This document shows positions 2,792-52,000 of a stretch of DNA of 64,000 bases, in pieces. The translations under genes were made by a program, and so were the position numbers. This DNA comes from Cristatella mucedo (lineage: Eukaryota > Bryozoa > Phylactolaemata > Cristatellidae): positions 3,116,001-3,180,000 of the forward strand of contig WPIO01000047.1 in the NCBI GenBank assembly GCA_009760855.2, written 5' to 3'. Under the pieces are notes generated by a model. The model made no database searches, was not told the DNA's origin, and worked only from the letters and a program-made list of their open reading frames with translations. Position 1 is the first letter of the stretch. Every line of letters starts with the position of its first letter.

Positions 2792-2899
2792 CGGTATTAG
2801 CTTGAAATCCTTCGATAGTTGGTTTTTCAGGTGATGTGATAGTCGTTGTGTCTGCTTTAGTTGTCCATACGCCGTCAACATCAGTAGCGGAGGTTCGTC
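2792..2899 (-). CDS. Candidate semaphorin exon: Thr-rich stalk, part 4
   Basis: 108-nt exon, phase 1 to 1. It reads [20 protein letters not shown] and then [15 protein letters not shown]. Acceptor CTCTAACTTTTAG and donor ACCG followed by GTATTC. The Thr-rich composition and phase suit the stalk of the upstream semaphorin, but 8.6 kb separates it from the last exon, so another gene cannot be excluded. Nothing after it in the window clearly encodes a membrane anchor. Confidence 0.6.
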
Positions 2900-3381
2900 C
2901 TAAAAGTTAGAGCTTCTTACATTGTAATAATTCAGATAAATCTAGCATTTAATTTCTTAACTTATACGGCATTATATTTTTCTCGATATTTTAAAGCTAA
3001 AAACACACACATTTATAAGGAACTAATGCCTATGCTGACCAACGAACTCATAATTGAATTTACATTTTCCTTATGCTATTATTTACATAAGAGTGCCTCA
3101 TCTCTCTGTATAAGATCTAATTGAATGTTAGCTGATTTAACAGCCTCATTCTTATATCGGCAGATGAGCCTTAACTTCTATAATTCCCGCTGCAGTTGTC
3201 AATACAGGATCACCCACTGAAGGTTTCCAATCCATGACTTCAGTCGTGAAAAGCGAGCACCTTACCTCTTGGGCTATCAAGGTCTTTAATGAAACCCCGA
3301 CCTGCTAGTAATATGCGCTCAATACTGAAAAGGTGGGCAAAACACGGAGGCAAAAGAAAGTTCATTGGATATAATATACAA

Positions 3382-3424
<43 letters not shown>

Positions 3425-6400
3425 TATAAAACTATTTTTCTCTTTTCCTCACTCAAGATTTGCCTAGTTTTGCAAAGCACAACGATGCATCTCCATTCAC
3501 TTGAACAGCAAAAGCTGTGCAGAACAGAAGGTTTTTAGCTTCTCTTTTTAAATATCTTCGAGTCCAGATATGTGATTTCAGGGCCTTGTAAAGTCATTGT
3601 TTAGGGACCGGAGTAAGCAGATAGAATGGTGGAAAGTAATGACTAATGCGAAACTAATTAGGATAGATAGGCAGACCAGGGCACAATGGCAGAGGGACCT
3701 CGGAGCAGGTGATTCGCAGAATATTGAATTGGGAGCAGTTCTTGATATGCACTCAATGCAGGTTGACTTGCAGTAGTGTAATGTAACAGAATGAACTCTA
3801 TGACAGACGGGCCTAGCTAATGAGCTTTGAAATTACGTCGTCGCTGGTTTGGTATAGCAGTTAAGGTGCTCGCCCCGACCAAGGTCTGACTGAGGTCGTG
3901 GGCTCGAGCCCAAAAGCATAAGTGAAGCGCCTGAATTGAGATTAAGTTCTCTTGGGGCGCTATATAAATGAATTATATATATATATATATATATATATAC
4001 ACTAGACCTATTTGTTACGGCACCATACATTAAAGGTGTACGATTTTGAAATTTTAACTTCAATGCTGCGTATTCTGATTACCGATGTACTTCAATTTCA
4101 CACTGCTTGCTGAATATGGCACTCCAGTAATAAGTCGGGCTATATCCTTTGCACTTATCTAACAGCGATCGATCTATATAGCTCTTTAGTTCTGTCTCGG
4201 CTTGATTATTGTAATTCCCTTTTGGCTGGGCTACCAAAGAAAGCTATTATGCCACTACAGCGGACTTTGGATATGGCTGCAAGGCTGGTCTTCAAGTCCC
4301 AGCGGTTTGAGCACGTGTCTCCTTTGCTGAAAGAGCTAGAATGGTTGCCGGTTGATCAAAGGATACAGAGCAAAGTTCTTATGCTGACCCAAAAGGCCCG
4401 CCACGGCTTGGCTCCTTCGTATCTAGCTGAACTGCTACATCAGTTTCAGCCTGTTCGCGCCCTCAGGTCCAGTGTGGACAATAAATTAGCTGTCCCATTC
4501 TTCCGCTTAAAGACAGTTGGCGACAGAAGCTTTAGCTCTGCAGGTCCAAGACTGCAGAACTCGCTTCCACAATTCTTACGCAACGACAACTACTCTCCAA
4601 CTGCCGACTATGGCACATCTTTTTCAGCGGTCCTGAACTGCTACTTCTATGCTACTCACTACTTCAACTGCTCTCCTAACTCTGCTATGCTTCCCACTTT
4701 CTCTTTGTTGCGTGAGACGAAGTCTGTTGGCTACCGAATGCGTACCGAAAGCCGCTTAGGTTGTGAGTGGGCTATACAAAACTCTCCTGCGTAACACCCA
4801 CATGGTCTTTATGACTTTGTGGAGTTACTGACGGAGATACATACTGGAAACTGCAGACAAGCTTAATGCTGAAATACCTGTCGCTCTCATTTGATTTTAT
4901 TTATGAAGCCTGTAAGAACTGGATTGGAGTAAATTGAATCTATCTCTTCAATAGAATCCAATAAAGAATTTACTAATTGCCAACATCTCTGGATAAAAAA
5001 TAATGCAATCGCATCCACCCGTGTACAGATACTCTAATTATCTCTTATTCACAAAAGAAAAACTCATCGAATATGTAAGAGCAGCTTTTCAATTCGCTGC
5101 CGTCACCGAATAGTACAATGTATCAACTATAGTTCAATGTGTAAGACCGTATAGGCTCCAATAACCTTTAACAGCATTAGTAGGGAAGGTTTTGAGGTTC
5201 AAGTACCTAGTGCGTGTACATTGGATTTGAGAAATCTACTGTGCTACGAAAAGGCCTCGTGTAGCTAGTAACACCTGTGGAAACTCGTAACTGACTGGCG
5301 GCGATACGCGTGGGAACACGGTCATCGTGCTATCTTGGCAAGAAAATGAAATTATGTCGCGATGTCGTTACGACCAAAGCTTGTTTGGTTGGACACGTAG
5401 GCATTGGTGGGGATGCTTGTAACACTTTTAAAAGCGACCTAGCTGCGAACCATCGAAAGCACGCCTTACGATTGCCCCGTCAACTTGTAAACTCTTGTAA
5501 GCCCAATACCTCTCATAGGGTGCTACCCTGAATGTCGAGAGACACTGCCTGCTTAGAGAGTTTCTCGGTGAATAAAGAGCCTTTTTGCACTTATCTTCTA
5601 AGTTTTAATTTAGATCGCCCAATCCTTTCAATTTCTTAGTGAAGACATGCACTTTATTAGCATCCTGGAACGCGTGGAAGACAATTCAAACGGACCAATC
5701 ATTTACTGTCAGGAACAGGTACACTTCAAAATTCTTCTTAAATATCATCAAGTCAAGGGACATCGTGACATCAGTTGCGAGGGATTTCAACGTTTTTGGG
5801 ACCGTAGGAGCTAAGAGCAGGGTCTCCAAAATATTTCAGGTTTTACGAAGCAAAGCGAAACGAACCGAGTCAGGGCAGTGGGTAGTGCGATGCCAACCTT
5901 GCCTTATTGGGAAGTAGTTCAAATAGATAGGCTGGAGCGAGAGAATGAAGAGTCCTAGAAATGAGCTAAGAAGGCTCAAATTTTTTTCGCTGCAGCAATT
6001 TGCGGATAATTAAATGGGACAGCAACATAATTTAAAAGGCGGTTTTTTGTTGGGCTACCTAGCATATCGGGGAAACCTGCTTCTCCAAAAATGAATTAAA
6101 CATTGAGGTATTGTTCCATGTGAAGACAACCTCGATATGCAAAGATCCTGAAACCTTAGAAACGAAAATTTTGTAATCGAGCATCCCATGGCTACTTTTT
6201 ACTAAAATAAACGGAGCTGATTTCCAACCCTCGATATATTGAGGCGATAGATTAGCCTTTAAATTGAGGGCAAAATCTTGGAAGATGTATCCGCAATGAT
6301 TAATAATAATAATGCATTTGATAAAGCGCCCTCGGAGAACTGAATCTCTCTCTAGGTGGTTTACGTTTTCTGCAATAGGAAATGCAATTGAATGGTGAGT

Positions 6401-9400
6401 AATATCATGCTTGATAAACAAACAACATAAAAAACATGGTCAGGGGTGACATGTAATAATAGTAATCATAAAAATAATGTACTTGATAAAGCGCCCTCAG
6501 AGAACTTAATCTCTTTCTATGCGCTTTACATTTGCTGCAAAGGGAAATGCAATTGAATGGTAAGTGAAATCACGCTTGAAAAATAAATTATATGAATAAC
6601 ATGGTTAGGGGTTACATGCACAGGGTCAGCATGCAAATGTGGTTAGTGGCACCATGCACAGTGTCAGCTCGCATAAGCACGTGAAAGACGAATCACATGG
6701 ACCCACTAAATTCTGTCCTAAATAGGTGTGTTTTTAAGTTCCTTTTGAATGTGGTCTGGTCAGTGGATGTTCTGACGCAGGTCGGGAGGGAGTTCCAGGC
6801 TTTGGGAGCAAGCATACACACTAAATCCACGGTCTCCAAAGGATTTAAGGTTTGTATGAGGTATTTCTAGACTGTTGGATTCCGAAAAGCGGCTGGTACG
6901 ATGCTTGGCCTGAAGGAGGAGTATGTCGGACATATAGACTAGAGCCATAGAATGAAGTGACCTAAAAGCGAGCGACAAAACCTTGAAGTCAATCTGTTGC
7001 TTGACTGGTAGCCAGTGCAGGTCGGCGAGAAGTGGAGTAAGGTGGCAACTGCGACGCTCACGACAGACAAGTCTAGCTGCAGAGTTTTGCACCAGCTGCA
7101 ATCGCCTGATCGCATATGCTGGTAGGCCAGTAAGCAGTGAGTTGCAGAAGTCGAGACGAGATGTCACGAATGCATGGACCAACTTGGACGTGGTATCCTT
7201 ATCTAAACAAGCCCTAATTTTAGCAATGTTATGAAGCTGAAAATAGGCAGATTTGACTGTGGAGCTGATATGGTCGTCCAACGAGAGGTCACTTTGGAAT
7301 ATGACACCTAGATTTCCAGCTGATTTAACCGGAGATGTGCTGACAGAGCCAATTTTGAGAGACAGCCTTTTCATCCTCTGAATAACACTCGGTTTGCCAA
7401 TAGCTAGTAGGTTAGTTGTATCATGGTTTAGTTTTTGTAAATTTGCTGCCATCCATGTGCGGATGTCATCAATGCATGCAGCAAGTGAGTTGAGAGAATT
7501 TGAGGTGCTCGAAGGCTGGGAGGGGTCAAAGCAAAGGCACAACTCAGTGTCATCCGCATAGAAGTGAAAGCATAGATTGTGCTCGGCAATCACATCAGCA
7601 AGAGGGAGAGTATAAACCGTGAAAAGAACCGGACCTAGCACGGAGCCCTGAGGTACTCCATATTTCAGAGGTACTTCAGATGATCTTTGTCCATTCACGT
7701 CAATACTCTGGAGTCTCCCACTGAGATAGGACCTGAACCACTGCAGAGCAGTGCCAGTGATGCCCAGGCGACATGCACAGGGTTAGCATGTAAATGTGGT
7801 TAGTGGCAGCATGCACAGTCTCAGTACACATAAGCTCATTAAGAAAGAATCACAGGGACCTACTAAATGCTGTCCTCAGTAGGTGTTTTTAAGTTATTTT
7901 TAAATGTGGTCAGGTCAGGGGATGTTCTGACGCAGGTCGGGAGGGAGTTCCAGGCTTTGGGAGCATACGAACTAAATCCACGGTCTCCAAAGGATTTGAG
8001 ATTTGTACGAGGTATTTGCAGACTTTTGGATTCCTAAAAGCGGCTGGTACGATGCTTGGCCTGGTAGATGAGTAGATCTGAGAGATAGGCTGGAGCCAAA
8101 GAATGAAGTGACCTACAAGTGAGCGAAAAAACCTTGAAGTCAATCCGTTGCTTGACTGGTAACCAGTGCAGGTCGGCGAGAAGTGGTGTGATGTGGCAAC
8201 TGCGAAGCTCAAGACAGACAAGCCTATCTGCAGAGTGTTGCACCAGCAATCGCTTGATCACACATGCCGGTATGCCAGTTAGCAGTGAGTTGCAGAAGTC
8301 GTGACGGGATGTCACGAATCCACGGACCAACTTCAACGTGGTATCTTTATCTAAACAAGCGCAAATTTCAGCAATGTTATATAGCTGAAAGTAGGCATAT
8401 TTGACTATCCAGCTGATGTGGTCGTCTAACGAGCTGGAAAACATTGCAGAGAGCTTAGAATGGAAATTGAATCAGTAACGTCAATAGTTTGCAGCATTAC
8501 CAGCAGTAAATTGACTCGTTATGTGAGAGAACGTATTTTTATTACATGCAGCCTGAATTCTTATTCGAAGCCGGGCTCGCTTTCTTTAAACGTGGAATCT
8601 ATTGGAAACAGTATAATTTGGAGCTTGAAAATTCAGAAAATTACAAAGTTTGCCCAGCGCCAGCATTTATGAGACGCTGTGGACTCTTTCCATTTGAAAC
8701 ACTTCAGGAAAATAAAGAATGATTAAAAGTCAAAATTGAAAGAGCAGTCATAACGGCGAGATAATTCTGCAAATATTTGAAGACGCTGTGAGAAGCTTTG
8801 AGACAGTACGCTTGCGTACTGCAATTGACGTATCGGTGAATCACTTTCGGCGCCATAATGAGTAGCTCATAAGTGAACTATTTCTAGCCAAGGCTTTCAT
8901 CTTGAAAGCTTCACATATTAGAAACTCTAATCGACGGAAATTAAGATTTAAAGTACCCGAGAACAGAGACAGCAACCGTTTTGTAATGAAAGCCCTTGGA
9001 AGCTCAGGACTCAGTAACGTCGAAGACTAAAATACTTTTTCTCCTGGCTCACGATGAGCCAGAGGAATAAGCGTACTATTCTCAGTAAATTTTTGAGACT
9101 GTATATTTCTTGTCAACCCGATAAATTCATGAAGGTAATCCAACAATTCTGGTCCGAATTTGGTTCTATCATGCTAGCGAATCGAAGCGAATGTGCTAAA
9201 AGAAATATGGCTAAAACTTTCCTTGCAAACGTCTGAGAACACCAATTCTGACATCATAAAACATGTATGTCATGTCTCGTGCCTTCCATCATTTAGCGTT
9301 GAGAAGTTGATTCAAGATATAATGCTGCTTGATACTGATTGACATCCAATTGACCTCTGATCCTCAGCGACGATTTATCTCTGGCAGCGAGTGCTTTGAG

Positions 9401-12400
9401 TCAGCACATCTGTCGAACAAGAGACTTTGAAAAACAAGGACAGTGACGCTCACTCTCCTTATCAAGAAAAACTACAAGCTGATTTACCAGCCTCTTCTTT
9501 TGCGAGACAAGAGCTCTGACGGTTATAACGTCGCTTGCAGTGGCAATAGAGAATCCCCCACTGCTGAATTCGAACCCACGACCTCGGGACCGAGGTCATG
9601 AAAGGCAACCGCTTTAGCTAGTGTGCCATCGCGGCTGGCCTACAAAAGTGCTCTCTCTGACCTTAACACACATAGTAATGCACCGGATCTTTGCTTAATA
9701 AATTTAATTAATTGTATAGCAGGTTGATTTTGTTCGTTTGCAAGCCCGTAGGGTTGGTAAGGCTATACAGTGATTCAGCCTTGCTAATATGCCTGCCTGC
9801 AGGCCGAGAGAGTGCTGAGCATCAGCGTAGAATCGGATAACATAAAAAAGGAGTCTTGCTAACCCAGAGTCCTGCCTGACTTTGAATCACTGAATGAAGC
9901 ACTATCTAAATCTTTTCTTTCGATCTGGCACATGTTGAATCAATTGTAAATAGTGCACGCTTAGGGAAGAGTTCGGCCAAGTTTTAGCCTGCTCAACAAC
10001 ATGCAGACAAACGGGACTTGCATAAAGCCCCGTTTGTCGTTGCGGTTAATTAAATTTACTTCCAGCCTCAACGCTTGTTGCATTGGGTCCTACTGATCTT
10101 ATAACCTAGATACGCCAGGATCAATACTATAATCAGTCTCTTGAAAGGCTATGGGCATCTTGCCGGTGAAGCAACTTGCCTACCTCCTTTCCCGCACGCA
10201 CGCATGCGAACCTGCCTGCTAACTATTGTATACTTCAATCCCTGTGAAACTAAGATTATCGAAAATAGAGATGTCGAGCTACAGGCTGGCTCCGCGAAGT
10301 ACTCCTCAAACTTCTGAGGAATTTCTGACGAGAGAAAGCTTAGTTAGTCATGGAGTAGTAGTAATAATTATAATAGTAATGAACATGATAAAGCGCCCTC
10401 AGAGAACTCAATTCCTTTCTAGGCGCTTTACATTTTAGTATTAGATGACGCTGAAAGAAGATCCCACACGCCATTGTATCTTCCATCTATGTAGTCTTAC
10501 TTTGATAGTACCAGTTCATACTAAAAGAAACGTTCTACGTTGCAAGTGTTCCCGATACACAAGCATACGCACGAGCACTTCTTCTACTCCTTCTCCTCCC
10601 AGCTCCTCCTCCTCCTCCTCCTCTGCCCTTCCTTACCTTTCCTCCCCCCCCCCGATATTCTCCTCTGCGTCCTCCCAGCCTTCCTACTCCTCCAAGCGCT
10701 CAGTTTAGACAGCAGTGGAAAATCTGTGTGTTATTACCAGCACAAGGACCTTACTGGTCTTTACTGCAGCAGATAAAGTCTGTCGGACGCAAGACTTGAA
10801 CCCCTGACATAGGCTATAAATTGCAAGTACCTCCCTGCCAGTCTAAGATGTGGTCATGTCATTGGGTCAATGCTCCACTACCTTGTAAGAACGAGAGAGT
10901 GCAGTAGGATAATCTGCAATCGCACAATACCATGGTACATAATTTAACATTGAGGCTTTCATATTAGAGTTAAAACTCTAAAAAGAGAGCTTGAAAGTCA
11001 AATCATTCGATAAGTCGCTCAGAAAATCACTCTAGCTTAATTCTTATCCAATTAATTTTTTGAGACTCATATTTTGATTTTGTAAAGAGTGGCTTGTTGG
11101 AGTGGTCGTAATATTAAAGGGTGGGGTGTAAACTAGCCAATCCTGCTGCACTGTCAAAAAAAGAGTAACGTTTTATACCTGTGCCTACGGGACATCTCCC
11201 CTTACCTAATATGCTTGTGGCCTCTTAAAAGTACTTAAGTATTATTCAAATTTGAGCTTGTATGCCTCAATTACTAAAAGAAACAGAAAATAAATGTTAT
11301 CTTTAATTTTTCTAGATTTCCAAATACAGATTACTTTGGAACGGTACGACATTTAAACGTTTTAAGAATATGTTTCTTACAGGAAAGGTAAGAAACTTTA
11401 GTTTTCTCGAATAAAAATGAAATGTATCGAGGATTCTCTAGCCATGTATTCTCATAACAATCGGCGGCCGTGTACTCTAACCTTCGCTTGCTATGGTAGG
11501 CAAGTAATGCAGTGCTGATGTCCCGGTCATAGCTGAAGTTGGCTGCGAGGAGGAAAACTCTTTGCTAGCGAGAGTTTGCATTGAGATGCCCATTTTTTCC
11601 GTCAAAGTAATAGTTTCCACATGGGGATTGAATCTTGAAGTACTTGAAAAACGTCTGCTAAACGATAAGGTGCACGTATAAAGTTCTTTAGTTGCCCAAG
11701 ATCTCAGAACTGTGAACTAAAATATGCCAAGGTGTGGCTTGCTCAATTGCTACTTGCCTCGTAGTTGTAAAAACGCTAGTGATTTCTGTCGCTGCTTCAA
11801 TGGAACGAGTGGTCTGAACATCACTAGAAGCTGAGCTTAAATTCTCCTTTGCAGCTCTTGGAAGATTTGCAGAGTAGGCTGTTCGAACTGTAGGCGGATA
11901 TGGGGTGCTGGAATTGGCTGGCTTCACCCCGTCGGGTTCAAAGGTGAGCATCTCTGACTCTCGTGCCTCCGATAAATGTTCTCGCGTCGATTGCTTTTCA
12001 GCAGCAGCAGCAGCTAGATCTGAAGTACCTCTTAATGGACCGAAGGACGCTCTGTAAGAGACGTGCTTCACTGCTGAAGACTGTGAGAATGTCTGGATTA
12101 AACTATGGCTAGCTTTCATGTGGTCAGTAGATGCCACAGTCTGGAGAACTTGTGAAGATCTTGGGGATTCATTTTCATAAAATGAAGAAGCTGTAGCCAG
12201 TGGCTTACTCGCTGCAGACACATAAAACCTCTCAGTGTAGCTGGAAATGTTAAAAGCGTGTGATTTTGAACCTAACGAATTAAATGGCAGTGTGTGCGAG
12301 ACTTCAGCCGTTTCATCATCCTTCTGACATGTAGTGGGCACTGAAATATACAAACGTTGTTAGTATGTGGTTATCGCTGGCATGTTAATAGCTTGTAATG

Positions 12401-21400: not shown

Positions 21401-21496
21401 GATACATCACAGTAACCTCCGAATGGTTATAATAATAATAATAATAATGAAGTGCCTAGAAAGAGATTGAGTTCTCTGAGGGCGCTTTATCAAGAG

Positions 21497-21529
<33 letters not shown>

Positions 21530-24500: not shown

Positions 24501-27500
24501 CTTGTTTACATATAGCATACAGTGAAGCAGCTACACTATGCAAAACAATTCCATTCCTTTAACGAAGTGGTGCTTTTTTGGTCCAATGGTGTTACATCTT
24601 AAAACAGATTGTACACAAACATTATATTAACCATCACTGTAAAGATAAGTACATTCAGTTCTTATGGATTCTCTTTTAAGAGCGTTTTTATAGAACATAT
24701 TTTGTCGCGGGGAGGAGAATAGTGACTTCGGCAAATGTGCAGCTTGGCGAATGATTGCAAACTATTAATTTACAGCCCATGCAGGGCTTATCTCCAAGGC
24801 GAGCTAAGCCCCTGAAGTTTGGGTTATGTAATGGCGCTCTTAGCCATCACCATAGGTCAGGTGTTGAATTGAATAAATATCGAGGGACTTTCGCACGCAT
24901 CTTCTGCTCTAAGAATTTTGCTTTCACTGATAAAAAAATCCAAGGTAATTTGGAGACAATGACAGGACCAAATTGGCAAAGAAAATAGGTATTGGCGATC
25001 GAAATAACGTCAAGCTACCAAGGAAGACAAGAAAATTGCAAGGAGCCAACAGGATTTGGGTGTCTATAACTCTTGTTTGCTAAGAGGTGAATGCATAGAT
25101 AGATTGAAAATAAAATCGTATGCATATGGCAGGAATCACTGGCTCTGCTCTGCAGTGGTTCAGGTTCTATCTCAGTGGGAGACTCCAGAGTATTGACGTG
25201 AATGGACAAAGATCATGTGAAGGACCTCTGAAATATGGAGTACCTCAGGCCTCCGTGCTAGGTCCGGTTCTTTTCACGGTCTATACTCTCTCCCTCTTGC
25301 TGATGCGATTGCCAAGCACAATCTAGGCTTTCACTTCTATGCGGATGACACTCAGTTGTACCTTTGCTTTGATCCCTCCAAGCCTTCGAGCACCTCAAAT
25401 TCTCTCAACTCACTTGCTGCGTGCATTGATGACATCCGCACATGGATGGCAGCAAATTTTCTATAACTAAACGATGATAAAAACCAACTTACTAGTTATG
25501 GACAAACCCAGTGTAATTTAAAAATTGGAATGTCTGAAGCTCAGAATTGGCTATGCCAGCATATCTCCAGTTGAATCAGCTCGAAATCTCGGTTTCAAAG
25601 CGACCTCTCGTTAGACGACCATATCAGCTCCACAGTCAAATCTGCCTACTTCCAGCTTCATAACATTGCTAAAATTCGGGCTTGTTTAGATAAGGATACC
25701 ACGTCCAAGTTGGTCCATGCATTCGTGAAATTCCATCTCGACTTCTGCAACTCACTGCTTACCGGCATGTGCGATCAGGCGATTGCAGCTGGTGCAAAGC
25801 TCTGCAGCTAGGCTTGTCTGTCGTGAGCGTCACAGTTGCCACATTACACTACTTCTCGCCGACCCGCACTGGCTACCAGTCCAGCAACGGATTGACTTCA
25901 AGTTTTTTTCGCTTAATTTTAGGTCACTTCATTCTTTAACTCCAGCCTATCTTTCAGATCTACTCACCCACCAGGCCAAGCATCCGACCACCAGCTTTTC
26001 GGAATCCAGCTGTCTAGAAATACCTCGTACAAACCTCAAATCCTTTGGAGACCGTTCATTTAGTTCGTATACTCCCAAAGCCTAGAACTCCCTCCCGACT
26101 TGCGTCAGAACATCCCCTGACCTGACAACATTTAAAAAGCTTACCTATTTAGGACAGCACTTAGTGTGCTCCTGTGATTCGTCCTTCATGTGCTTATGCA
26201 TGCTGACACTGTGCATGGTGCCACTAACAACTATTGCATGGTGACCCTGTGCATGTCACCCCTAAGCATGTTATTCATTTTGTTTGCTTATCAAGTACGA
26301 TATCATTCACCATCCAATTGCTTTTCCCTTTGCAGCAAATGTAAAGCGCCTAGAAAGAGATTGAGTTCTCTGAGGGCACTTTATCAAGTTCATTCTTATT
26401 ATATATCTTAGTCGTATCTTGGGTCTGAGGCCAGCCCCTAATATGCATATTCGGAAGCTGCTTGTGGGGATTACTGGATAACATGCTGGCGAAATGGAGA
26501 TTGCTTAATCTACGCTCAAGTGAGCGAAAATTTTCCTTTTTACCAAAAGGCTCACGAATTGAACTGCTATTCAAAGCCAGTCCAGAAGACCCGAACTTGG
26601 CTTGGAAAAGGTTGGTGAGTGGCAAAGCGGTGCTGTTATAGAAGCTGCAAGTGACTTTGATGGACAGAAAATCTTGTGCAATTCAAGCAGTCTTCTTTGG
26701 AAGTTCGTATGTGCTAGCATTCCTGCCAACTCCAACGCCTAAGTGTTACGACCAAGAATCGGGCAGTTACAAAGATGGCCCTTCTCTCAACTTTATGCGA
26801 CTATACAGCCCACTCATCAGCCAAGGGCGTTTGTGAATCATGAGCTGCAGAGACCGAACCGGCGCATAAGTATGGCAGACACTGAAGTCTCGTGAGAACA
26901 ACCTAGGCACCTCAGCCGAATTTGGCTGCTACTGATGATGAAGTTTTTCCCTTTAAAGGAATTCAGGATGAAGAATTCAAATTTTGAAGAGGAACATGTC
27001 TTTAACACTGTACGATTTCCGACTTCAAAGGTTGCTCAACACTTTTAGATTCTACTCTGTTGGCAGAATGTGAAAAGTGGCTCTAGGTAACTGCCTATCT
27101 CAGCTCGCCTATATATGCAGATAGCACCACTGAAAGAATAGTATTTAGTTATATTTCTATCACTTAGTGTCTTAACAATTAAGTACTGAGATATAGGTAC
27201 AAGGCCACGGTTTAACGTGATGAAAATGGGTTATTCTCCAAATTCACCTATACTGTGAAGAATCCGGATTTCATCGGTAAGATACAACACTGGGATTGTT
27301 ATGAAGCTTACAGCTTGCACAAGAATGCATACATGGCTATTTATGAGCTTAAAAGTTAGTATTCTAATTTGAGGAGCCGTATGAAGAAAAGGCTTAAAAA
27401 TGTACAGGGCACAGTCAAGCCTCCGTGCAATTAGTTTATAGATCAAACTGCAGCAAAGAGACAGTTTCTGCACTACACAACTTGCTGACCCTTGCTTAAA

Positions 27501-30500: not shown

Positions 30501-33500
30501 AACCGATACATTTTTAAACTTATGTACTCTTGGTGCCTGAAGCTTTTGCTCGGCCTAATGTGCATAGTGGATCTCTCTGCAATTGTTATTATCCGACGCC
30601 TTCTTCCAAAAGAGGACATCATTTTAACTTGTCTCCAGCTACTACTCTCCTGCTCTGTAACTGCCTCTACTGTGCTCCTGCTTTGAGTTAGCAGCCCAGT
30701 CTTTCGTAAAGTCCATTGGCTACTTTATTAGCCCCGATAACCGCTTAATATCTGAGTTCACGATAAGCAACCCTCTGGAGAAACCACCGCTTAGTCTCCC
30801 TGAGTTATGCTACAGACAGAGATATATATATAGGTGTACTTTACATTCATGCCCGTCATGTGAGCTATTCTGTGCCTGTAAGATCTACATCATCTTAAAT
30901 TGCATTGCATTACATCACAGATTGCCCATCCGCTCTTTATACTCTTCCAGTAAGCGCTTACACCAGCCATTCAGTTTGGATACACTGAAAATCTAGAACT
31001 CGCCTCCTGCTTCCCTCACAACCAATAATGACCCTGCATTGCTTAAGGCTCAGCTAAAGACTCAAAAGCTCCGATCCTTCTTTTCTGCTCTCAATACTAA
31101 GTTATATTTTTTCATGACTACTTTACGTGTACATGTGCTTATTCAGGTCATGGCAGTTTCTAGACGTCCACAAATCTGGTAGGTTTGATTATCTTTGTGT
31201 TTTCTTTAACATACCGTCTTAAGCATAGTGCTTGGCTTGTTCCTGCATATCCAAGCATGGACCTATGCATGTCATTAACCCTTTGCTACTCAGCGCTTTG
31301 CAGTGAGTTCCAATCCTCCCATTGAAGGATTTAGTCCTCTTAGGACGCAATACAAAATTGTATGGTGTTGTCGAAATTACTAGTACAATGATCTTTAGCT
31401 TTCTGCTTTCTTTATAATTTTTTATTTTTAAGCCATGGCCGCAAGTTTCCGCTTACGCGCGTACCCAATTCCAATAGACGCCCTTTCTTAATACAAAAAA
31501 AGATGTTACTTGTAATTGGGAGCAGAGAAGCCACAACTAATTATGCCCGGTTGTGGGACCCCATCAACTACAGGCCTCACTCCGGTCGAAGCTGTCAACG
31601 CATCACTGACCACGTGAAAGATCCCCCGAGGGGTTTTCTCCGCGCCTTGAATGCTTGGATGCATGCTTCGTCTGTAGCGGGTCTCTGGAATTCGCCTGAC
31701 TAAGAGCAAGCTGCGTGAGAGAGCTGAGACGAGAGCATCGTGAAAGCAACGCCCTAGAAATACATCCTCAGCAGATCGGAAACTTTCGCTGTACGCTACC
31801 TATTTCATCGAAGTAGAACGTATGAAATCCAGCGTTATTTATAGTGTTTAAGTCGTGGTGAACAAATCTTCCCTCGACAGAGCATTCCAGTGACGCCTTA
31901 AATAGAGTAGCGAAGAGCATTGCACCATCTGTCTCCTGCAGCAGCTGTTCGTGTGACATGTCGTCTTTACATGCTCTAGCAACTCTCGACACACTCTTGT
32001 ACAAAAACGGAACGAGTTCTTGTGCCACTTCCGTAAATATCCAATAGACATGCTGATCCGATTCAAAGTGTGTGAGGAAGTTTGGGTATATTCGACTATC
32101 ACGCGACGCTCCTGTAGAAAAAAAGAAACGTCATAGTTCCTAATGTATCGGCATACATGCAAAGTGATTTAATTTATCTCCGTCTGCAACTCCACAAAGC
32201 CACACAGACTATGTGATTGTTCAGAAGAAGTGTTTTGTTTAGCTCACTCACAGCCTAAACTGCTTTCGGTACGCATTTGGTAGCCGACAGACTTCACCAT
32301 GCACAACAAACAGAAAGTTTGATGCATAGCAGAGTCAGGAGATCAGTGAGCAGTTGAGGTAGTGAGTAGCATGAAAGTATCAGATCGGGACCGCCGGAAA
32401 GAATGCGCCATAGTCGGCAGCAGGAGAGCAGTTGTCGTTGCATAAGAATTTTGGAAGTGAATAACAGTCTAGGACCTGCACAGCAGAGGCTTCTGTCACC
32501 ATCGGTTATAAAGCAGAGGAATGGATCAGCTAATTTATTTCCAGAGAGGAACTGAAAGCACGAGGGTGCTGAAACTTATGCAGCAGTTCAGTTAGGTATG
32601 AATGAGCCAACCTTTGGCGAGCATTTTGGGTCAGCCTAAGAGCTTTACCTCTGTAGCCATCAATCAACTGTCAGCCATCCAAGCTTTTCTAGCAAAGGAG
32701 ACTAAAGTTCAAACCGCTGTAGTATGTGTGAACTAGCCTTGCAGCCATATAGATTACCAGCCGCATCGGTCTACTGGCCTTTTTGCAAGATCATCTAAGA
32801 TGGATATGCAACGATCTGATTGCCGAATCAGAACCGAAGAAAAACTTAATTTCGTGCAAGCAACTGTGGAATACAGTTCCTAATCCTAGATAGGGATCAA
32901 ACATCGTTTCTAGCTGTCGAAGCAGTCTTCTGAACGAAGCTTTTAAATGTAGGCAGTTGGCGAAGACGACACCTAAATTCCGAGCACCTGGTAATGGTTG
33001 CAAAGCACCATCACCTAACAGAAGACCAAAGACTTCCGATTCAACCACACGCTTATGTTTTCCTATGAGCAGCAGTTTAGTTTTATAGTTGTTTAGTTCT
33101 AAGAAAACTTCCGACATCCAGTATCGTATGTCTTCAAGGCAAGCATTCAGTTTATCAGTTGCAGCAGCAGATTTCAACGGTTTAAATAAAAAATACGGCT
33201 GAGTATCGTCAGCATAAAATTGATCTATCTGGATGAAACCGGACCCCACCCACGTCAAAGTACGAACACGACCAAAAACGTACGATTTAAGTCATGCCAA
33301 CGCCTGGTCTGCCAGACCGAGCGTTGCTCACAATTATTCAAGTAGGAAATCGTGATCGGTGGTATCGAAAGCAGCTAATTAATCTGGCAGTACTAGGGCA
33401 GTGACATTCCCGTCATCGTTGCTGCATAGGATGTCATGGTTTGCCTGCCTGTAGCCAAACGATTCATGAATAGGAATTGCAACACCTCCACCAACCTCGC

Positions 33501-36500
33501 TCGATTGCATTGACTGATAGAATGAGATTCCGGGTGGGGTGGTCTCAGATATGCAGCTCCGGAGCAGGGCGTCATCTTTATTTTGGTAAGTCGATCCGCG
33601 ATGGCAGACTAGGTAGTGCCGTTTCTTTCAGGACCTCGCTACCGAGGTCGTGGGTTAAAATCCTGCAGCGGGCGATCCTCAATTGCCGCTTCTAGCTGCA
33701 GTGCTAGCCTTTTAAGGCTCTTCTGTCGCTATACAAGAGGTGGCTGTTAAATCAGCTTGAATTATTTAAGCAGAAACGCAAGTACCTTATCCTGGACAGC
33801 CTGATCGCGAATAAGTAATCCCATGGTTTTGAGTAAGCGGACATGTTGCTGGGAAAACTTAAGAGACTGTCCAGTGACCGTGCGACGCCGATTAAGGTGC
33901 TGGTATTCTAGTCGGCATATATCCGGCCTATCAGACGCACTCTTCAAATTTAAATTAGAACTTAGTAAAGGTCCCGGTCGACTTTTTACAACATGATGAG
34001 GCACGGCAAGCGAGCTACTACCCCAATGAGCGCTAATCGGCGCTTTAAACCTAAGGGTCATAGGTTTGATAGCCGAGCTGTTGATAGGGCGAACGAAGGA
34101 TGAAGAGAGGTTCTAAATTACTGGCCGAAGTAGGCCCACAGGTAGGTATCGACAAATGATGCCATCGCACCTTCTGCTAAGCAGGTCCTGTTTTGAGTTG
34201 CATATCCGAGGACAGCTCGTAAACGGTCCCAGCGAAGATAGCAGCGGAATGTCCGATGGTGTCGCGTAGAAGTCAGGTAAAGGTCTACAAGGCACTCAAA
34301 GTCGCCTAGGGCAGCCGCTCTCTAGCGAGAGGAGGAATCATTTTCAGAGCGGTCTCGACATTTTAAGTGAACTAAATTGATCCTATTTAAAAACAATTAC
34401 TTGACATTTGGTCTCTAACCCACATATGTCTCCTTGTATTCTTCGAATAGCCCATTCCACTAATACTGGATCCAATTTTCGTAGCCTTGCTCGCTCAGTT
34501 AGAATAGCAGTAGATGCGCTTGCAGGATTCGCTTCGATTTACCTCGGTGTGCATAAATTTCGGGCACCGAAAAAAGATGACTGGTTATTAGTAACTATTG
34601 GCTGTTCTAGAAACGTTCAATGGCAATAGCCAAGAATAAAGCTGTGGGTTGGGTGAGCCTTCTACCTCTGGGCACTGTTTTCCTTCCTCCTTCGTCTGGC
34701 TATGTGGGCGAATGCAGCGAGCCAGCCGACACCGAGCAGCCTTGTGAGGCTTCATAGTTATCTAATACGTCCGAATCGATGATCAGCGCGAACGACCACG
34801 AGAAGTTAAAGTACCAAATAAAACCTTATTGGACTGCAAGAGCCGTTAGGACTTTTCCAGTCTCTGCTTTTGTGCTTTTAATTTCTTACGGCGCATCTGA
34901 AAGGGGCTTTAGCATGCACCCAGTTTCCATCTTGCCATCACGATCAAGAGCAATTCATCCGAAATCTTACGCCCCTCGAACCTGTAGGTCTTCACGAGTT
35001 ACTTATACAGTATGGCGGCTCTTGCCCCTCCCAAAAATGTCAGCTCTTGGAACACTATTACGCGTTTTTCAATTGTTTTTCCGCATTACTGTCGGCCTTT
35101 TAATGCTTTCTTTAATCGTCGCAGTGCCGATGTTTGTTTGAGCAGATGGCGTGAGTGGACACTCGAGGAGCGATTAATTCAGGTAGGTATGCCAGAACCA
35201 AAGCGCTCTGACAATCAGGCATTTAACGTTACTCACAAAAATTAGTTTCTGATATGCTGTCATATTCCGAATGATCCAGATGTTATAGTCACTGCTGACG
35301 CGACATGTGTAGAGTTACCAGCAATTATAGCCAAAGCTTTAAGCGACAAGTCTTTAAATGACCTCAAATGCTTCAGCTGACTGAATAATATATCGGTAGC
35401 AGAGCTGAAGCCGGCTAACAGTCTATGAGTCTACGAGGCGCCTTAAAAACATATGGCAATTTTTTAGCTGATTCATACTAAGTGCTTAGAGCCACTTTTG
35501 GAATAGTTGCTATCGGTCAGATTATCGCTCTAGAATTTTTTTCTAATTACTGATCATGGTAACGTAAATCGCCTACAATCAACTCGAGATGTTGGCAAGC
35601 CACTGCAATTTGCTACTAAATTTACTCTTGCATAATTTACCAACCTTCTAAACTTTGTGAAGTAAGCAAATTCATGCATCATCAAAATAATTACGGCCTA
35701 GATGACTACACCAATGATCTATTTATGCTGCTTGTTTTTAAAAACCTCAGTTCACTTACCCCTGTCATTTACTCTGAACCGAGATATGCCTAAAGGAGAA
35801 TCGCCAGTGCGTAGTGATGCGCCAGATTCATTCAAGGAAGCTCTGTAGATCAGACATTTAAACGCCGTGAAGAAGTCCAGCACGCAGCCTCCGAAATAGG
35901 CCAGCAAGCCTGGGCCTTAAAAGATCACGTAGCACTTCTAAGCTTTACGTTGCGTAATTGTTGAGCACACGCCTAGAGATATTAGTATCACTCAAAGCAT
36001 CGAAACCTTACCGGTGACGAAGGAAACTGAATTCATCCATGGCAGCGGTGGTGCGAAAAAAGTGCTCTTTACTCCAAGTCGGTTGGTTCCACTGGAACTT
36101 AAATTCCAGCGTGCCTGAAAATAAGGAATACAGGATAAATATTTTTACAATTGCAAATAGGTTTTTTCTCATGAGACAGTTCAGCAATCATCTATGGCAT
36201 AATTAGGTTTAGAGGTAGCCCTTGAAGATGTAAGAAAAACTCCAACTTCGTTTTGGAAGGTTCGTGCCAGTTTAAGCTGATCTAGCAGTTAGTTCCAACC
36301 TACTTATTTCCAAGCTTATCCATGCATAGTCAATGGAGCGAAACTTATATAAGATTAGAAATGAAAGCATATTTCAAAATTATATGTAAAGATTTTCTTA
36401 TACAACGAACATGCATCTAATGTTATTAAGCTTATTTGTCTGAACTGAATAGCAAATCAGCAGTGAGTTCCTTGAACGGAATGTATGGATGTGCTAATCA

Positions 36501-37825
36501 TCCTTAAATTTTACATTAACTAATAACTATATATTAAAAGTACACAACAACCAACCATGCATAGACAAGTAGGAAAAAGCACATAAGAAGATTCTAAGTG
36601 TTACCGGTCATAAGGACCAATAGTTATTTGCAACGGTGAATTGTGCTCACGTAAGCATGCTAAAAAACACAGGAATTACAGGAAAACCGACATTTTTACT
36701 CACTATATACGTCATAATCTATAGTTTAAAAAGTACAGCTGGACATTTAGAGTGTTAGTCAGTCAGTTAAAAAAACTGAGCAAAATAGACGCGTCTTCAA
36801 CCGAAACTGGTACGACGCAAAGTCAATGCAGCTGGATACAGTAGCTGGAAGCAAGTTCCAGACTTCCTTTCATTCAAACTGAAGGACCCTACCACCAAAC
36901 CATTTCTGTTTATTCGTGCAACGCCCCGCGATAGTGAATTTTGAGCGTGACTTTTAACTGAAGATTGCTTAATAAATAGCCGCGATTGGAAGGTTTAGTA
37001 GCGGTCTACAGGAAGTTACGTGTCGCACCACTTATAATGTAAAGTAAATTATTTGTGCTGTTGCGATTTCGGTATTTTTAATGGAACTGCTTGTGGAATA
37101 GCGATGAAATGTTTTTGCCGCTTCGTCTGTTTAGAGCTCCGGGTCTGTATATTTTGCATGCATTGCATTAATGCTGCCTTTATCCTATATTTAAAAAAAA
37201 TAAAATGCGTCGGAAATATCCTATTATACTAGCTCAGCTAAAATGCACTTGCTGTAGCTTACCTCTGCCGTTAGATATACAAGACTCTTGCACGAGGCCT
37301 GTCCGGCATTGCTTCCGCATATCAAAATCTCTTCGTTGGAAATCGGAAGTACTGTCCGAATAAAGTTTTTGTGACACTAGCGGTATAAAACATTTATATT
37401 GAGTTACCATTAAGTAGCAAAAAAAATCAAAAAATCAGAGCTGCGATTAGAAGGTTTAACGCAAATTCACCATAAGCTAATACCTGAGAAAACCCTGCTT
37501 CAATTTTTCGCATGAGTTCCCGACAGCCTGTCCTAAAACTGCTCGAGCGCCCAGCGTCGACAGGCATGTAAACTTCTGATGTTGCCGTCATGTTGCCGAG
37601 GCTCACGTTGAACATTTTATCTCTGTGGTCGACCACGCAGAGTGGCTCAGCTATTCATGACAGTTTCGCTTGCTAAGAGAACGTACGAAGGTGGCAAAAG
37701 ACGCTTGCTATCTACACGTGAAATTTACCTGGCTCCAATAAGTACGAAGGATTCTCCTTCCTGAAGAAATCGAAGCCATTTTTCTTTTTTTAAGGGATCC
37801 GGATCAAAGACGGACAGCAAAGAGC
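2792..37825 (-). CDS. Semaphorin gene (sema + PSI + Ser/Thr-rich stalk), 16 exons recognised, both ends missing
   Basis: Semaphorins are secreted or membrane-bound guidance ligands that bind plexin receptors through the seven-bladed sema propeller. Sixteen minus-strand exons (listed separately) join in phase at every junction to about 930 codons. Family hallmarks appear in the right order: [77 protein letters not shown], then the PSI core [12 protein letters not shown]. After PSI comes a Ser/Thr-rich stretch and no Ig domain, which fits a transmembrane class-1/6-like layout better than Ig-bearing classes; that class assignment is inference. The first exon(s) with start codon and signal peptide, and the membrane or terminal exon(s), are not identified. 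No CDS-disrupting stop or frameshift was seen in the joined exons, so the gene looks functional. Confidence 0.9.
3125..3300 (-). mobile_element. tRNA-derived SINE, diverged copy
   Basis: Starts with AGCTGATTTAACAGCC (the element's 3' end on this strand) and ends near the tRNA-like head around 3225-3300. Same layout as the better copies at 9478-9655 and 33591-33766, but the internal promoter boxes are eroded. Confidence 0.55.
3838..4000 (+). mobile_element. tRNA-derived SINE with a LINE-like hairpin 3' tail
   Basis: The head has an A-box-like GGTATAGCAGTTAAGGTG and a B-box-like GGGCTCGAGCC, as in RNA polymerase III tRNA promoters. The 3' part, from AAGCGCCTGAATTGAG to TTGGGGCGCTATATAAATGA, pairs AGCGCC with GGCGCT, the same plan as the 3' tail of LINE family A. 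It ends in (AT)n. A shared tail is how SINEs borrow a partner LINE's reverse transcriptase. Confidence 0.7.
4180..4860 (+). mobile_element. LINE family B, 5'-truncated, RT C-terminus intact
   Basis: The 190-codon ORF at 4222-4794 encodes the end of a non-LTR reverse transcriptase: [35 protein letters not shown] and [16 protein letters not shown]. It is followed by a 3' UTR ending near GACGGAGATA. The catalytic YADD region is missing, so this is a typical dead 5'-truncated insertion. It is close in sequence to 60726-61310. Confidence 0.85.
5690..5990 (-). mobile_element. Old LINE family A 3' fragment
   Basis: The minus strand carries a decayed version of the RT end and 3' UTR: a counterpart of the bases around 58440-58620, including the TCCAAA...TTTAAGGTT and AGGCTGGAGC...AATGAAG blocks. 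No intact frame. Confidence 0.5.
6296..8445 (-). mobile_element. LINE family A, outer (older) copy split by a nested insertion
   Basis: The outer copy consists of 6296-6453 (tail and start of the 3' UTR) and 7770-8445 (rest of the 3' UTR and RT C-terminus). The RT part reads [15 protein letters not shown] and [20 protein letters not shown], with some frame damage near the 3' end. The interruption is another family A copy at 6454-7769, flanked by GACATG on both sides. Confidence 0.85.
6454..7769 (-). mobile_element. LINE family A, inner (younger) copy with a 312-codon intact RT segment
   Basis: The ORF at 6760-7698 carries RT motifs: [15 protein letters not shown] (motif B), [12 protein letters not shown] (catalytic YADD, motif C) and [20 protein letters not shown], then the thumb and C-terminal region. 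The tail at 6480-6540 on the minus strand is the hairpin type followed by (ATT)n-like sequence. The element is 5'-truncated, missing the endonuclease and RT N-terminus. CR1/L2-like non-LTR clade by motif layout (inference). It lies in intron sequence between stalk exons of the semaphorin, on the same strand. Confidence 0.92.
9478..9655 (-). mobile_element. tRNA-derived SINE, best minus-strand copy
   Basis: On the minus strand the head reads GCCGCGATGGCACACTAG, then TAAAGCGG (A box), and further on GTCGTGGGTTCGAATTC (B box). The body ends with GGCTGGTAAATCAGCT. Total about 178 bp. The same head, body and end occur at 15538-15668 and 33591-33766. Confidence 0.75.
10355..10440 (-). mobile_element. 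Solo 3' tail of LINE family A
   Basis: Only the hairpin tail is present: GATAAAGCGCCCTCAGAGAA on the plus strand followed by CTTTCTAGGCGCTTTACA, preceded by an (ATA)-like run. It represents an extremely 5'-truncated insertion. Confidence 0.75.
10590..10680 (+). repeat. (TCC)n-rich and poly-C low-complexity tract
   Basis: Runs of CCTCCTCCTCCTC and CCCCCCCCCC. Two overlapping Ser/Pro- or Leu-rich ORFs here are artefacts of this composition. Confidence 0.8.
10780..10855 (-). other. tRNA-like head sequence, probably a SINE remnant
   Basis: On the minus strand, TAGACTGGCAGGGAGGTA followed about 30 bases later by GGGGTTCAAGTCTTGC resembles A and B boxes. I could not fold a full cloverleaf, so a functional tRNA gene is unlikely. 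Confidence 0.3.
11482..11654 (-). CDS. Candidate semaphorin exon: Ser/Thr-rich stalk, part 3
   Basis: 173-nt candidate exon (phase 2 to 1). It reads [17 protein letters not shown], then [20 protein letters not shown] and LPTIASE, with the same composition as the neighbouring stalk exons. The acceptor is TCGTTTAGCAG at 11655. The donor GAAG followed by GTTAGA is mediocre. It fits in phase between the 583-nt exon (through a GC donor) and the exon at 2792-2899. No similarity to named domains. Confidence 0.5.
11758..12340 (-). CDS. Semaphorin exon: Ser/Thr-rich stalk, part 2 (large exon)
   Basis: 583-nt exon (phase 1 to 2), about 193 codons. It starts [16 protein letters not shown] and includes repeated Ser/Thr clusters such as [20 protein letters not shown] and VFTTTR. 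There are NIS, NSS, NLS and NES sequons, but no hydrophobic run long enough for a membrane segment. The acceptor GTATATTTCAG is good. The proposed 3' border is a GC donor (AG then GCAAGT) whose phase matches the next candidate exon. If it is not used, the frame ends at a TAA at 11688-11690, which would give a secreted form. Confidence 0.75.
12480..12653 (-). CDS. Semaphorin exon: Ser/Thr-rich stalk, part 1
   Basis: 174-nt exon, phase 1 to 1. The joined start reads [16 protein letters not shown], then [20 protein letters not shown] and [11 protein letters not shown]. Composition is rich in Ser, Thr, Asn and Pro, as in O-glycosylated extracellular stalks. The acceptor is TCTTGTTTCTGTAG. The donor CACAG followed by GTTCGA is weaker than the others in this gene. 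The frame also stays open beyond the donor to a stop near 12407, so a read-through product is possible. Confidence 0.77.
12654..15537. other. Semaphorin intron, no other gene recognised
   Basis: Contains the LINE tail at 14808-14990 and a short tandem TTCCTGATACTGA at 14625-14660. Small ORFs at 13365-13648 on both strands lack support. Confidence 0.5.
14808..14990 (-). mobile_element. LINE family A tail and partial 3' UTR
   Basis: ATAATAATTATACATTTGAA followed by GCACTCAGAGAACTGAATC and TTTCTAGGCACTT on the plus strand: the reverse complement of the family A hairpin tail, diverged from the main copies. A similar variant with CATTTGTATAGC lies at 21533. Confidence 0.65.
15538..15668 (-). mobile_element. 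tRNA-derived SINE, shorter copy
   Basis: Begins with AGCTGATTCAACAGCC and ends at the head sequence CATCGCGGC (all on the plus strand). The B-box region GAATTCAAGCCCACGACC is recognisable in reverse. It lies 125 bases from the post-PSI semaphorin exon. Confidence 0.65.
15793..15857 (-). CDS. Semaphorin exon: post-PSI linker
   Basis: 65-nt exon (phase 2 to 1). It reads [20 protein letters not shown] and then N. A polar linker with one cysteine just after PSI is typical of semaphorins. The acceptor ATTATTGCAG and donor TAATG followed by GTAAGC are strong, and the phases match both neighbours. Sequence similarity alone would not identify it. Confidence 0.82.
16380..16845. repeat. GC-rich block with short tandem CTAGGCGATAG repeats
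   Basis: Base composition is clearly more GC- and CpG-rich than its surroundings. Between about 16475 and 16525, units of CTAGGCGATAG and ATAGGCCTACG recur. It lies in the semaphorin intron between the PSI exon and the post-PSI exon, so a promoter CpG island is possible but unsupported. Confidence 0.5.
16845..17050 (-). mobile_element. LINE family A tail plus 3' UTR fragment
   Basis: (ATA)-rich start, then GATAAAGCGCCCTCAGAGAA and the 3' UTR words GGGTCAGCATGCAAG and GCAGTTAGTGGCAG seen in all family A copies. Ends about 90 bases from the PSI exon of the semaphorin. Confidence 0.8.
17142..17436 (-). CDS. Semaphorin exon: end of sema domain and PSI domain
   Basis: 295-nt exon (phase 1 to 2), 97 whole codons. 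The first part, [10 protein letters not shown] and later [11 protein letters not shown] and [12 protein letters not shown], covers the last sema blade. The second part is a PSI domain: [20 protein letters not shown] then DLELRQC. The spacing of the cysteines and the RDPYCxWD core are classical. PSI domains are Cys-rich knots that orient the sema propeller. The acceptor is CTAATTGTAG and the donor TATAG followed by GTGAGA. This is the most certain coding exon in the window. Confidence 0.97.
17517..17599 (-). CDS. Semaphorin exon: YTxIAVD..V
   Basis: 83-nt exon (phase 2 to 1). It reads [20 protein letters not shown] then DILHVGT, matching ytkIaVd.V.a.dg..YdVlFlGT. The acceptor is TTCAATTTACAG and the donor ACTG followed by GTAAAA. 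The split last codon joins the next exon to restore GTDDGR. Confidence 0.93.
17600..19759. other. Semaphorin intron, no other gene recognised
   Basis: No repeats of the main families. A 149-codon plus-strand ORF starts at 19304 and overlaps the next exon's border; it shows no family resemblance. Confidence 0.5.
19760..19872 (-). CDS. Semaphorin exon: HPLM-equivalent segment
   Basis: 113-nt exon (phase 0 to 2). It starts with CDNTMNRTD; the Cys completes the RPG.C motif. Then [20 protein letters not shown] and FFQTDH follow, equivalent to fik.HPLMd..V.P..grPlf...d. The strict HPLM residues are replaced (DRLLIPSV). The acceptor has an eight-T run then AATGGCAG; the donor is TCACAG followed by GTGAGG. 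NRT is a sequon. Confidence 0.88.
21426..21535 (+). mobile_element. LINE family A solo hairpin tail between ATA/ATT runs
   Basis: (TAA)n, then AAGTGCCTAGAAAGAGATTG to GAGGGCGCTTTATCAAG, then a long (ATT)n. It abuts a second tail in the opposite orientation at 21533, giving a tail-to-tail pair. Confidence 0.8.
21533..23000 (-). mobile_element. LINE (family A-like, diverged) RT fragment
   Basis: Minus-strand pieces in broken frames: [20 protein letters not shown] with [14 protein letters not shown] at 22784-22993 (the RT N-terminal block), a region with AFDNIDH-like coding near 22500-22560, and the C-terminal part down to 21800. The copy is older than the A copies at 6.5 and 58 kb. Confidence 0.8.
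24178..24364 (-). CDS. Semaphorin exon: GSAICAF and RP..C approach
   Basis: 187-nt exon (phase 2 to 0). It contains [20 protein letters not shown], matching ipgSAvCvYsm.di...F.G, then SPQWQRGF and [10 protein letters not shown]. The last piece, joined to the next exon's Cys, matches the P.pRPG.C motif. The acceptor is exceptional, with eight T then CTGCAG; the donor is ACG followed by GTGAGA. The intron to the previous exon is 3.6 kb and contains a family A LINE in the opposite orientation. Confidence 0.93.
25115..26402 (+). mobile_element. LINE family A, 5'-truncated, frame-broken
   Basis: Plus-strand copy from [20 protein letters not shown] with [15 protein letters not shown], through a YADD-type region near 25330 and [20 protein letters not shown], to the hairpin tail at 26340-26395. 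Several indels split the RT frame. It lies in the semaphorin intron in antisense orientation. Confidence 0.88.
28006..28093 (-). CDS. Semaphorin exon: LYGVF strand
   Basis: 88-nt exon (phase 1 to 2). It reads [16 protein letters not shown], then [17 protein letters not shown] is the ivYGvFt strand of the sema propeller. The preceding Gly/Ser-rich stretch looks like a loop insertion. The acceptor GAATTTCAG and the donor CATAG followed by GTAAGG are both good. A 72-codon ORF on the opposite strand over this exon is a shadow. Confidence 0.87.
28094..30839. other. Semaphorin intron, no recognised feature
   Basis: Unique-looking AT-rich sequence. ORFs at 29200 and 30360 on the plus strand have no motif I recognise. 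Confidence 0.45.
30840..31370 (+). mobile_element. Old LINE RT end and 3' UTR, strongly decayed
   Basis: Around 30960-31060 there are counterparts of the W-NSLP-type RT end, then a tail-like stretch ending GTCCTCTTAGGACGCAATAC near 31330-31355. It seems related to the CR1-like group but belongs to neither A nor B closely. Confidence 0.45.
31800..32111 (-). CDS. Semaphorin exon: central sema domain ([10 protein letters not shown])
   Basis: 312-nt exon, phase 1 to 1, 103 whole codons. It contains [12 protein letters not shown], matching vYfffrE.a.E, then [13 protein letters not shown], the very conserved .srvaRvCK.D, then [11 protein letters not shown], matching fLKArLnCsvpg, and FHTFYFDEI. 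The acceptor is AAATAAGTTTCTACAG-like with TTTCTACAG at 32112-32120. The donor is ATAG followed by GTAGCG. It is separated from the previous exon by a 3.6-kb intron that holds the 5' part of a family B LINE and a SINE. Confidence 0.93.
32165..34345 (-). mobile_element. LINE family B, internally deleted copy carrying a SINE
   Basis: The 3' part (32165-33260) includes an RT piece with [19 protein letters not shown] deletion then joins it to RT start remnants (33290-33480) and to endonuclease-region and 5' sequences up to 34345 that match 50290-51040. A SINE interrupts it at 33591-33766. The 3' end begins only 54 bases upstream of the central sema exon. Confidence 0.82.
33591..33766 (+). mobile_element. 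tRNA-derived SINE inserted in a family B LINE
   Basis: Head CGCGATGGCAGACTAGGTAG, B-box region GTCGTGGGTTAAAATCC, end GGTGGCTGTTAAATCAGCTT. It interrupts family B between GGTAAG and TAAGCAGAAA; the intact site at about 50445 reads GGTAAGCAGAAATGC, so TAAG was duplicated on insertion. This also fixes the element's length at about 176 bp. Confidence 0.8.
35760..35915 (-). CDS. Semaphorin exon: DF..IYR..LRT segment
   Basis: 156-nt exon, phase 1 to 1. It reads [15 protein letters not shown], then [20 protein letters not shown] and RFRVNDR. This matches the sema-domain order (G)eLYagt..DF.g.d..IyRslg...LRTe..d. Two cysteines (FGGC, FKC) sit where most semaphorins have none, possibly replacing the lost CP cysteine of the preceding exon. 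The acceptor ATCTTTTAAG is moderate; the donor AGGG followed by GTAAGTG is near consensus. Confidence 0.85.
36012..36114 (-). CDS. Semaphorin exon: divergent mid-sema segment
   Basis: 103-nt exon (phase 0 to 1) with a good acceptor (CCTTATTTTCAG) and donor (CACCG followed by GTAAGG). It begins [14 protein letters not shown] and ends [14 protein letters not shown]. The end aligns with the usual ydP.hnsvavfvdG segment, but the canonical GKCP cysteine is absent; the equivalent stretch reads STFFAPPLP. Similarity alone would be weak. The call rests mainly on phase agreement with both neighbours, the splice sites and the position. Confidence 0.72.
37263..37376 (-). CDS. Semaphorin exon: CxNFIRxL and CGSNA motifs
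   Basis: 114-nt exon, phase 0 to 0, 38 codons. It opens with [11 protein letters not shown], the family motif eCaNFvRvL whose Cys pairs with the one in the previous exon. It goes on to [20 protein letters not shown], matching lyvCGTnAf.P.C.yi, so the second disulfide pair is kept. The acceptor ATACCGCTAG has a weak pyrimidine tract; the donor GCAGAG followed by GTAAGC is strong. This is one of the most diagnostic exons of the gene. Confidence 0.9.
37484..37622 (-). CDS. Semaphorin exon: sema domain, first cysteine region
   Basis: 139-nt exon (phase 2 to 0). The joined codon gives IGAR followed by [15 protein letters not shown], the counterpart of VGArdkvfalnL in other semaphorins. It continues to [10 protein letters not shown], matching the WPv segment, and to [15 protein letters not shown], which holds the first conserved cysteine. 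The acceptor is CGACCACAG at 37623 and the donor is CAG followed by GTATTAG. The intron separating it from the upstream exon is only 106 nt. Two N-glycosylation sequons (NVS, NMT) are visible. Confidence 0.85.
37729..37825 (-). CDS. Semaphorin exon: start of sema domain
   Basis: 97-nt exon, entering in phase 1 and leaving in phase 2. It reads through [11 protein letters not shown] and [13 protein letters not shown], matching the first strand of the sema domain (usual form: LLLde..LyVGAr). The donor is GCCAG followed by GTAAAT. The chosen acceptor follows a pyrimidine-rich run ending in TTCTGTAG at 37826. The same frame stays open upstream to about 37946 but has no ATG, so the start codon must lie in an earlier exon. 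The exact 5' border is the least certain part; the 3' border is firm because the next exon completes the VGAR-type motif. Confidence 0.7.
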
Positions 37826-51799: not shown

Positions 51800-52000
51800 A
51801 GTGACGCGTCTACGCGCTAGCGTCTAAGCGCTAAAGCCCAAGCGCTAGCGCCTAATCGCTAGCGTCGCCAGCGCTAGCGTCGCCAGCGCTAGCGTCGCCA
51901 GCGCTAGCGTCGTCAGAGCTAGCGTCGCCAGAGCTAGCGTCGCCAGCGCTAGCGTCGCCAGAGCTAGAGTCGCCAGCGCTAGCGTCGCCAGCGCTGTTCG
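51800..52000 (-). repeat. 15-bp minisatellite GCGCTAGCGTCGCCA, reads as (GDASA)n
   Basis: About nine to ten units with variants (GTCAGAG, GCCAGAG) between 51858 and 51995, preceded by looser GCGCTAGCG words from 51810. On the minus strand the unit length keeps one frame and encodes a Gly-Asp-Ala-Ser-Ala repeat continuous with an upstream ORF (start 52115). CpG-rich, unlike its surroundings. Confidence 0.85.

Follow-up and report, generated by a model that had tools for sequence, protein, structure and literature searches.

The minus strand of the window, by which we mean the whole stretch of 64,000 nucleotides analysed here, carries a chain of 13 exons (37825-11691, 2329 bases, 776 codons) that is very probably a divergent, intron-rich animal gene for a semaphorin with the sema-plus-PSI layout (class 1/6-like), whose introns contain retroelement remnants. 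The exons encode first a sema domain, then a PSI module and finally a stretch rich in Ser and Thr, and no stop codon was found inside the modelled exons down to 11691. The semaphorin gene is real and of an ordinary sort, though a divergent member of a known family, and homology, rather than reading-frame phase, decides the case for it. A gene reading made by eye has thus become a tested gene model, whose trustworthy part runs from the sema core to the PSI module and does not include either end. The gain for biology is one extra divergent semaphorin, which would be weightier if the host lineage is poorly sampled.

The exon model was rebuilt from scratch, since the initial annotation gave no exon list. 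Open frames of the minus strand were listed, candidate exons were chosen by their resemblance to semaphorins (with known semaphorin motifs as a guide), and splice sites were scored against a consensus with generic weights. Nine exons were obtained directly in this way. Strict criteria applied to the gaps between exons returned zero candidates; exons C2 and D2 came from phase-filtered gap scans, and exons I and J were added after the PSI exon. For the Pfam and PDB searches, exons 1 to H and one doubtful bridging exon were joined into a protein of 551 aa.

The joined protein matched Pfam Sema at 7e-27 (profile positions 14-176 of 182) and, right after the sema domain, Pfam PSI at 3.3e-6. This was the test proposed with the original claim that sema and PSI hallmarks occur in the right order, and the claim was borne out. 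Adding exons I and J extended the PSI match from profile positions 1-30 (27.8 bits) to 1-48 of 52 (31.3 bits, 2.6e-7). The first three exons (1, A and B; 116 aa) gave no Pfam match at 0.1 by themselves. The best PDB matches of the joined protein were 6fkk (1.2e-38; listed as MIP07328p, which we take to be fly Sema1b) and 6qp9 (Semaphorin-1A, 2.5e-37), and it also matched SEMA6D (7y4o, 5.6e-30) and SEMA6A (6wts, 1.5e-25). It is highly improbable that the exons belong to a different sema-domain protein such as a plexin or a Met-type receptor. The PSI exon also matches plexins (plexin A, 5e-6), but the joined protein reached 4.3e-7 at best against plexins in the PDB, far from its best semaphorin match, and IPT, Ras-GAP and kinase domains were absent from the Pfam results of 10 long ORFs.

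A tblastn search with the Sema1b chain against the window (E up to 10) listed 12 matches, of which the top five were exons H (4.6e-13), D (4.4e-7), G, B (0.014) and E (0.12), all on the minus strand and collinear; the other seven had E values of at least 1.9. A home-made spliced alignment, using a profile of four solved semaphorins and four intron costs, scored 249 on the gene's strand, compared with 41.3 for the whole plus strand and 32.3 for a control region on the minus strand above 38600. Forty dinucleotide shuffles of 38600-16900 reached at most 44.2 (mean 34.2). One spurious piece in the whole-minus-strand alignment (44889-44818) was worth less than 0.01 points. The contention that a minus-strand chain of short exons exceeds chance is therefore upheld by the Pfam and PDB matches, the collinear tblastn matches and the score of 249 against the shuffle maximum.

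Phase agreement had been the main argument of the initial annotation, which counted 16 exons in phase at all 15 junctions. In the rebuilt model of 13 exons, 11 of the 12 neighbouring exon pairs agree in phase, the exception being B-C. When the top-scoring sites near the model boundaries were picked without regard to phase, 10 of 12 pairs matched, with misses at B-C and G-H; the top-scoring A-B sites differ from those of the model, yet match in phase. Among the six pairs that touch none of C2, D2 and I (1-A, A-B, B-C, E-F, F-G and G-H), four matched, a result that could be obtained by chance. The phase argument is thus weaker than it sounds, since C2, D2 and I came through a phase filter and only four of the six remaining pairs match, and it is homology that carries the case. 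The free choice of sites and the four unconditioned matches also speak for a chance chain, its exons chosen by eye from the many open frames and sites that resemble splice sites, and it counts against the gene model that C and C2 were not selected by homology. However, neither the 40 shuffles nor the other strand came near the score of the gene's strand, and the ORFs of exons H and D match semaphorins on their own, so that the probability of such a chance assembly is negligible.

The first two exons of the model are recovered less firmly. Exon 1 (37825-37729, phase 1 to 2) holds the start of the sema domain, including a 16-residue stretch, and is not a start exon; its acceptor is weak (0.4) and its donor scores 5.4. 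Exon A (37622-37484, phase 2 to 0) opens with an 11-residue stretch and has weak sites (0.6 and 0.9). The spliced alignment recovered both exons only at the two lowest intron costs, entering exon 1 from 37772 and finding exon A at costs 8 and 10 and not at 12 or 14. Exon B (37376-37263, phase 0 to 0) contains CHKNFIRT and, further on, an 11-residue stretch, with an acceptor of -0.1 and a donor of 6.1.

The junction that follows is the one internal junction that does not fit: exon B ends at 37263 in phase 0, and exon C starts at 36114 and needs phase 1. Exons C (36114-36012, phase 1 to 2, strong sites of 5.3 and 5.2) and C2 (35842-35760, phase 2 to 1, containing SLRTGDS, sites 2.5 and 5.4) are probable exons with weak homology, and C2 was the best phase-filtered candidate in its gap. 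The block between B and D shifts with intron cost in the spliced alignment, which does not settle exon C, entered it in the wrong phase at the default intron cost and did not pick C2. When the B-to-D block was aligned separately, it yielded scattered short pieces without C or C2 that changed with intron cost. A loose scan between B and C, in which a single exon of 20-250 bases was allowed as the bridge, gave three in-phase candidates; the best, of 40 bases at 36343-36304, has weak sites (-0.7 and 1.4) and no recognised homology, and this doubtful exon was kept outside the 13-exon model. The CPYSP/CPYDP segment present in the two fly chains was not found at the B-C gap. A CPYDP-like exon Y at 36659-36605, ending in a 17-residue stretch, was rejected; it needs phases 1 to 2, against phase 0 of B and phase 1 of C. 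We also rejected a stretch past an acceptor at 37184 (17 residues, then a stop), where no GT lies between the listed donors at 37230 and 37088.

From exon D to exon I the sema core keeps its frame and has usable splice sites, and exons D, D2, E, F, G and H were the same at all four intron costs, with H followed to 17171, approximately the profile end. Exon D (32111-31800, phase 1 to 1), which opens with a 12-residue stretch and closes with one of 10 residues, alone matched Semaphorin-2A at 2e-7. Exon D2 (28093-28006, phase 1 to 2), ending in a 10-residue stretch, was the best of 10 phase-filtered candidates. Exon E (24364-24178, phase 2 to 0) begins with an 11-residue stretch, lies in the collinear place and has sites of 5.4 and 4.4, and exon F (19872-19760, phase 0 to 2), ending in a 17-residue stretch, has sites of 4.8 and 7.0. 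Exon G (17599-17517, phase 2 to 1), with a 27-residue translation, has sites of 2.7 and 1.9. Exon H (17436-17142, phase 1 to 2) encodes the end of the sema domain and most of the PSI module, and its ORF alone matched Pfam PSI at 4.9e-7 and, among PDB entries, a chain of a fly semaphorin at 3.1e-8; its acceptor is weak (-0.4). Exon I (15857-15793, phase 2 to 1, sites 2.2 and 5.0), found in a phase-filtered scan, ends the PSI module with a 14-residue stretch. Overall, weak splice sites were the acceptors of exons 1, A, B and H and the donor of D.

The last modelled exon, J (12340-11691), is entered in phase 1 through an acceptor of 1.2 behind TACTAAC and is a Ser/Thr-rich open frame (27% Ser+Thr) with no Pfam hit. 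Position 11691 is the end of this frame and not a splice site; the best donors within the frame score 1.7, 1.0 and 0.3, none leads to a supported exon, and no onward donor in the needed phase scores well. In the region 12741-11480, three successive Ser/Thr-rich open frames occupy three different reading frames on the minus strand, which represent either a series of stalk exons or a single exon disrupted by small insertions or deletions. None of the Ser/Thr-rich frames below J was added to the model. One of them, at 11654-11482 (phase 2 to 1, sites 2.7 and 2.9), is an unsupported candidate, the phase-2 donors of J all scoring -2.5 or worse.

The gene was originally described as complete-looking, with about 930 codons down to 2792, and neither part of this description is supported. 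The upper limit, 37825, coincides with a weak acceptor, and its frame reaches the preceding stop without containing an ATG; the lower limit, 2792, coincides with a weak GT site (-1.4) instead of a stop codon, and the candidate exon there (2899-2792, sites -0.03 and -1.4) is unsupported. The candidates below 11691 have no homology and have weak or conflicting splice sites. No start codon, signal peptide or stop codon was found for the modelled gene, which is incomplete as modelled, with neither end located, and may continue past the window edge. The minus strand below 17140 contains 14 hydrophobic stretches above threshold, none of which could be joined to the gene as a membrane segment.

Pattern scans (not profiles) of the minus strand from 17141 to 1 found no TSP1 pattern, and the frames with Ig-type patterns were either those of retroelements or short and isolated. 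Since no TSP1 pattern and no convincing Ig pattern lies downstream, the sema-plus-PSI (class 1/6-like) layout fits best; this is a description and not proven membership, because seven sequences cannot place the predicted protein. In an unrooted tree of these seven sequences, the window protein is placed between the two fly and the four vertebrate sequences (support values of 87 and 87), with a branch length of 1.65 compared with 0.23-0.80 for the others. Across the D-H block it shares 30.3-35.0% identity with six solved semaphorins, which share 35.0-65.3% with each other, and it keeps 35 of their 57 invariant columns. Like the fly class 1 chains, with which its D-H identity is 32.6% (6fkk) and 35.0% (6qp9), it has sema followed by PSI, and the LYGVFNT-NSI-GSA-CAF and DPYCxWD stretches align. 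Unlike them, it has no CPYSP/CPYDP that we could find, and its FYFDEI and RPLRHPATC stretches are each preceded by extra residues. It also shares sema plus PSI with the class 6 proteins SEMA6D (7y4o, D-H identity 33.4%) and SEMA6A (6wts, 30.3%). According to PMC6374515, transmembrane class 1 semaphorins have this sema-plus-PSI layout, which is also found in some semaphorins of sponges, of comb jellies (secreted) and of starfish (Sema-SP, secreted). The domain layout of these sponge, comb-jelly and starfish proteins is alike as far as the window shows, in a comparison based on their published description (PMC6374515).

Two other readings of this divergence were considered. If the gene were a semaphorin pseudogene in decay, or if the assembly contained small errors, this would account for the B-C mismatch, the absence of CPYDP and the shift of frame beyond J, and the three reading frames of the Ser/Thr-rich region and the long branch of the window protein point the same way. 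We consider this unlikely, as the modelled exons contain no stop codon and the core from D to I has kept its frame and usable splice sites. It is somewhat less doubtful, but still only tentatively proposed, that the gene is a fast-evolving lineage-specific semaphorin with a partly rebuilt propeller (extra residues before FYFDEI and RPLRHPATC, CPYDP segment lost), a long Ser/Thr-rich stalk and perhaps a changed receptor partner.

For the semaphorin gene that we favour, a function can be proposed by analogy. In semaphorins, the sema propeller binds a plexin carried by another cell, whose leading edge then collapses or turns locally, and the PSI module and stalk hold the propeller off the membrane. 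The predicted protein would combine a sema propeller with a PSI module and a stalk that is rich in Ser and Thr and probably glycosylated, and would guide cells or axons from outside the cell by serving as a plexin ligand. Most likely it is a plexin-binding signal. We infer that the gene is transcribed, that its product binds plexin and is membrane-anchored or secreted, and that its stalk functions as in known semaphorins.

The initial annotation also regarded this as the host gene of the window. Pfam searches of 19 other ORFs, including the Ser/Thr-rich exon J, are consistent with this, returning two reverse transcriptases and 17 ORFs without a match in a scan of single ORFs. No Rfam match at the gathering score was found in the window. 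The two reverse-transcriptase frames (Pfam RVT_1, two of 10 ORFs) lie on the minus strand at 6763-7782 (7.6e-10) and 48027-48671 (2.1e-9). Similar fragments occur on both strands, e.g., at 58403-59212 (-), 59930-60781 (+) and 25729-26085 (+), and by reading we take the reverse-transcriptase fragments to be remnants of non-LTR retroelements. A 165-base unit repeated 1.9 times (6303-6618, 82% match) adjoins a retroelement frame, and a 15-base unit is repeated 9.3 times at 51857-51995 (93% match), where the minus strand reads SGDASAGDAS-like repeats in an open frame.
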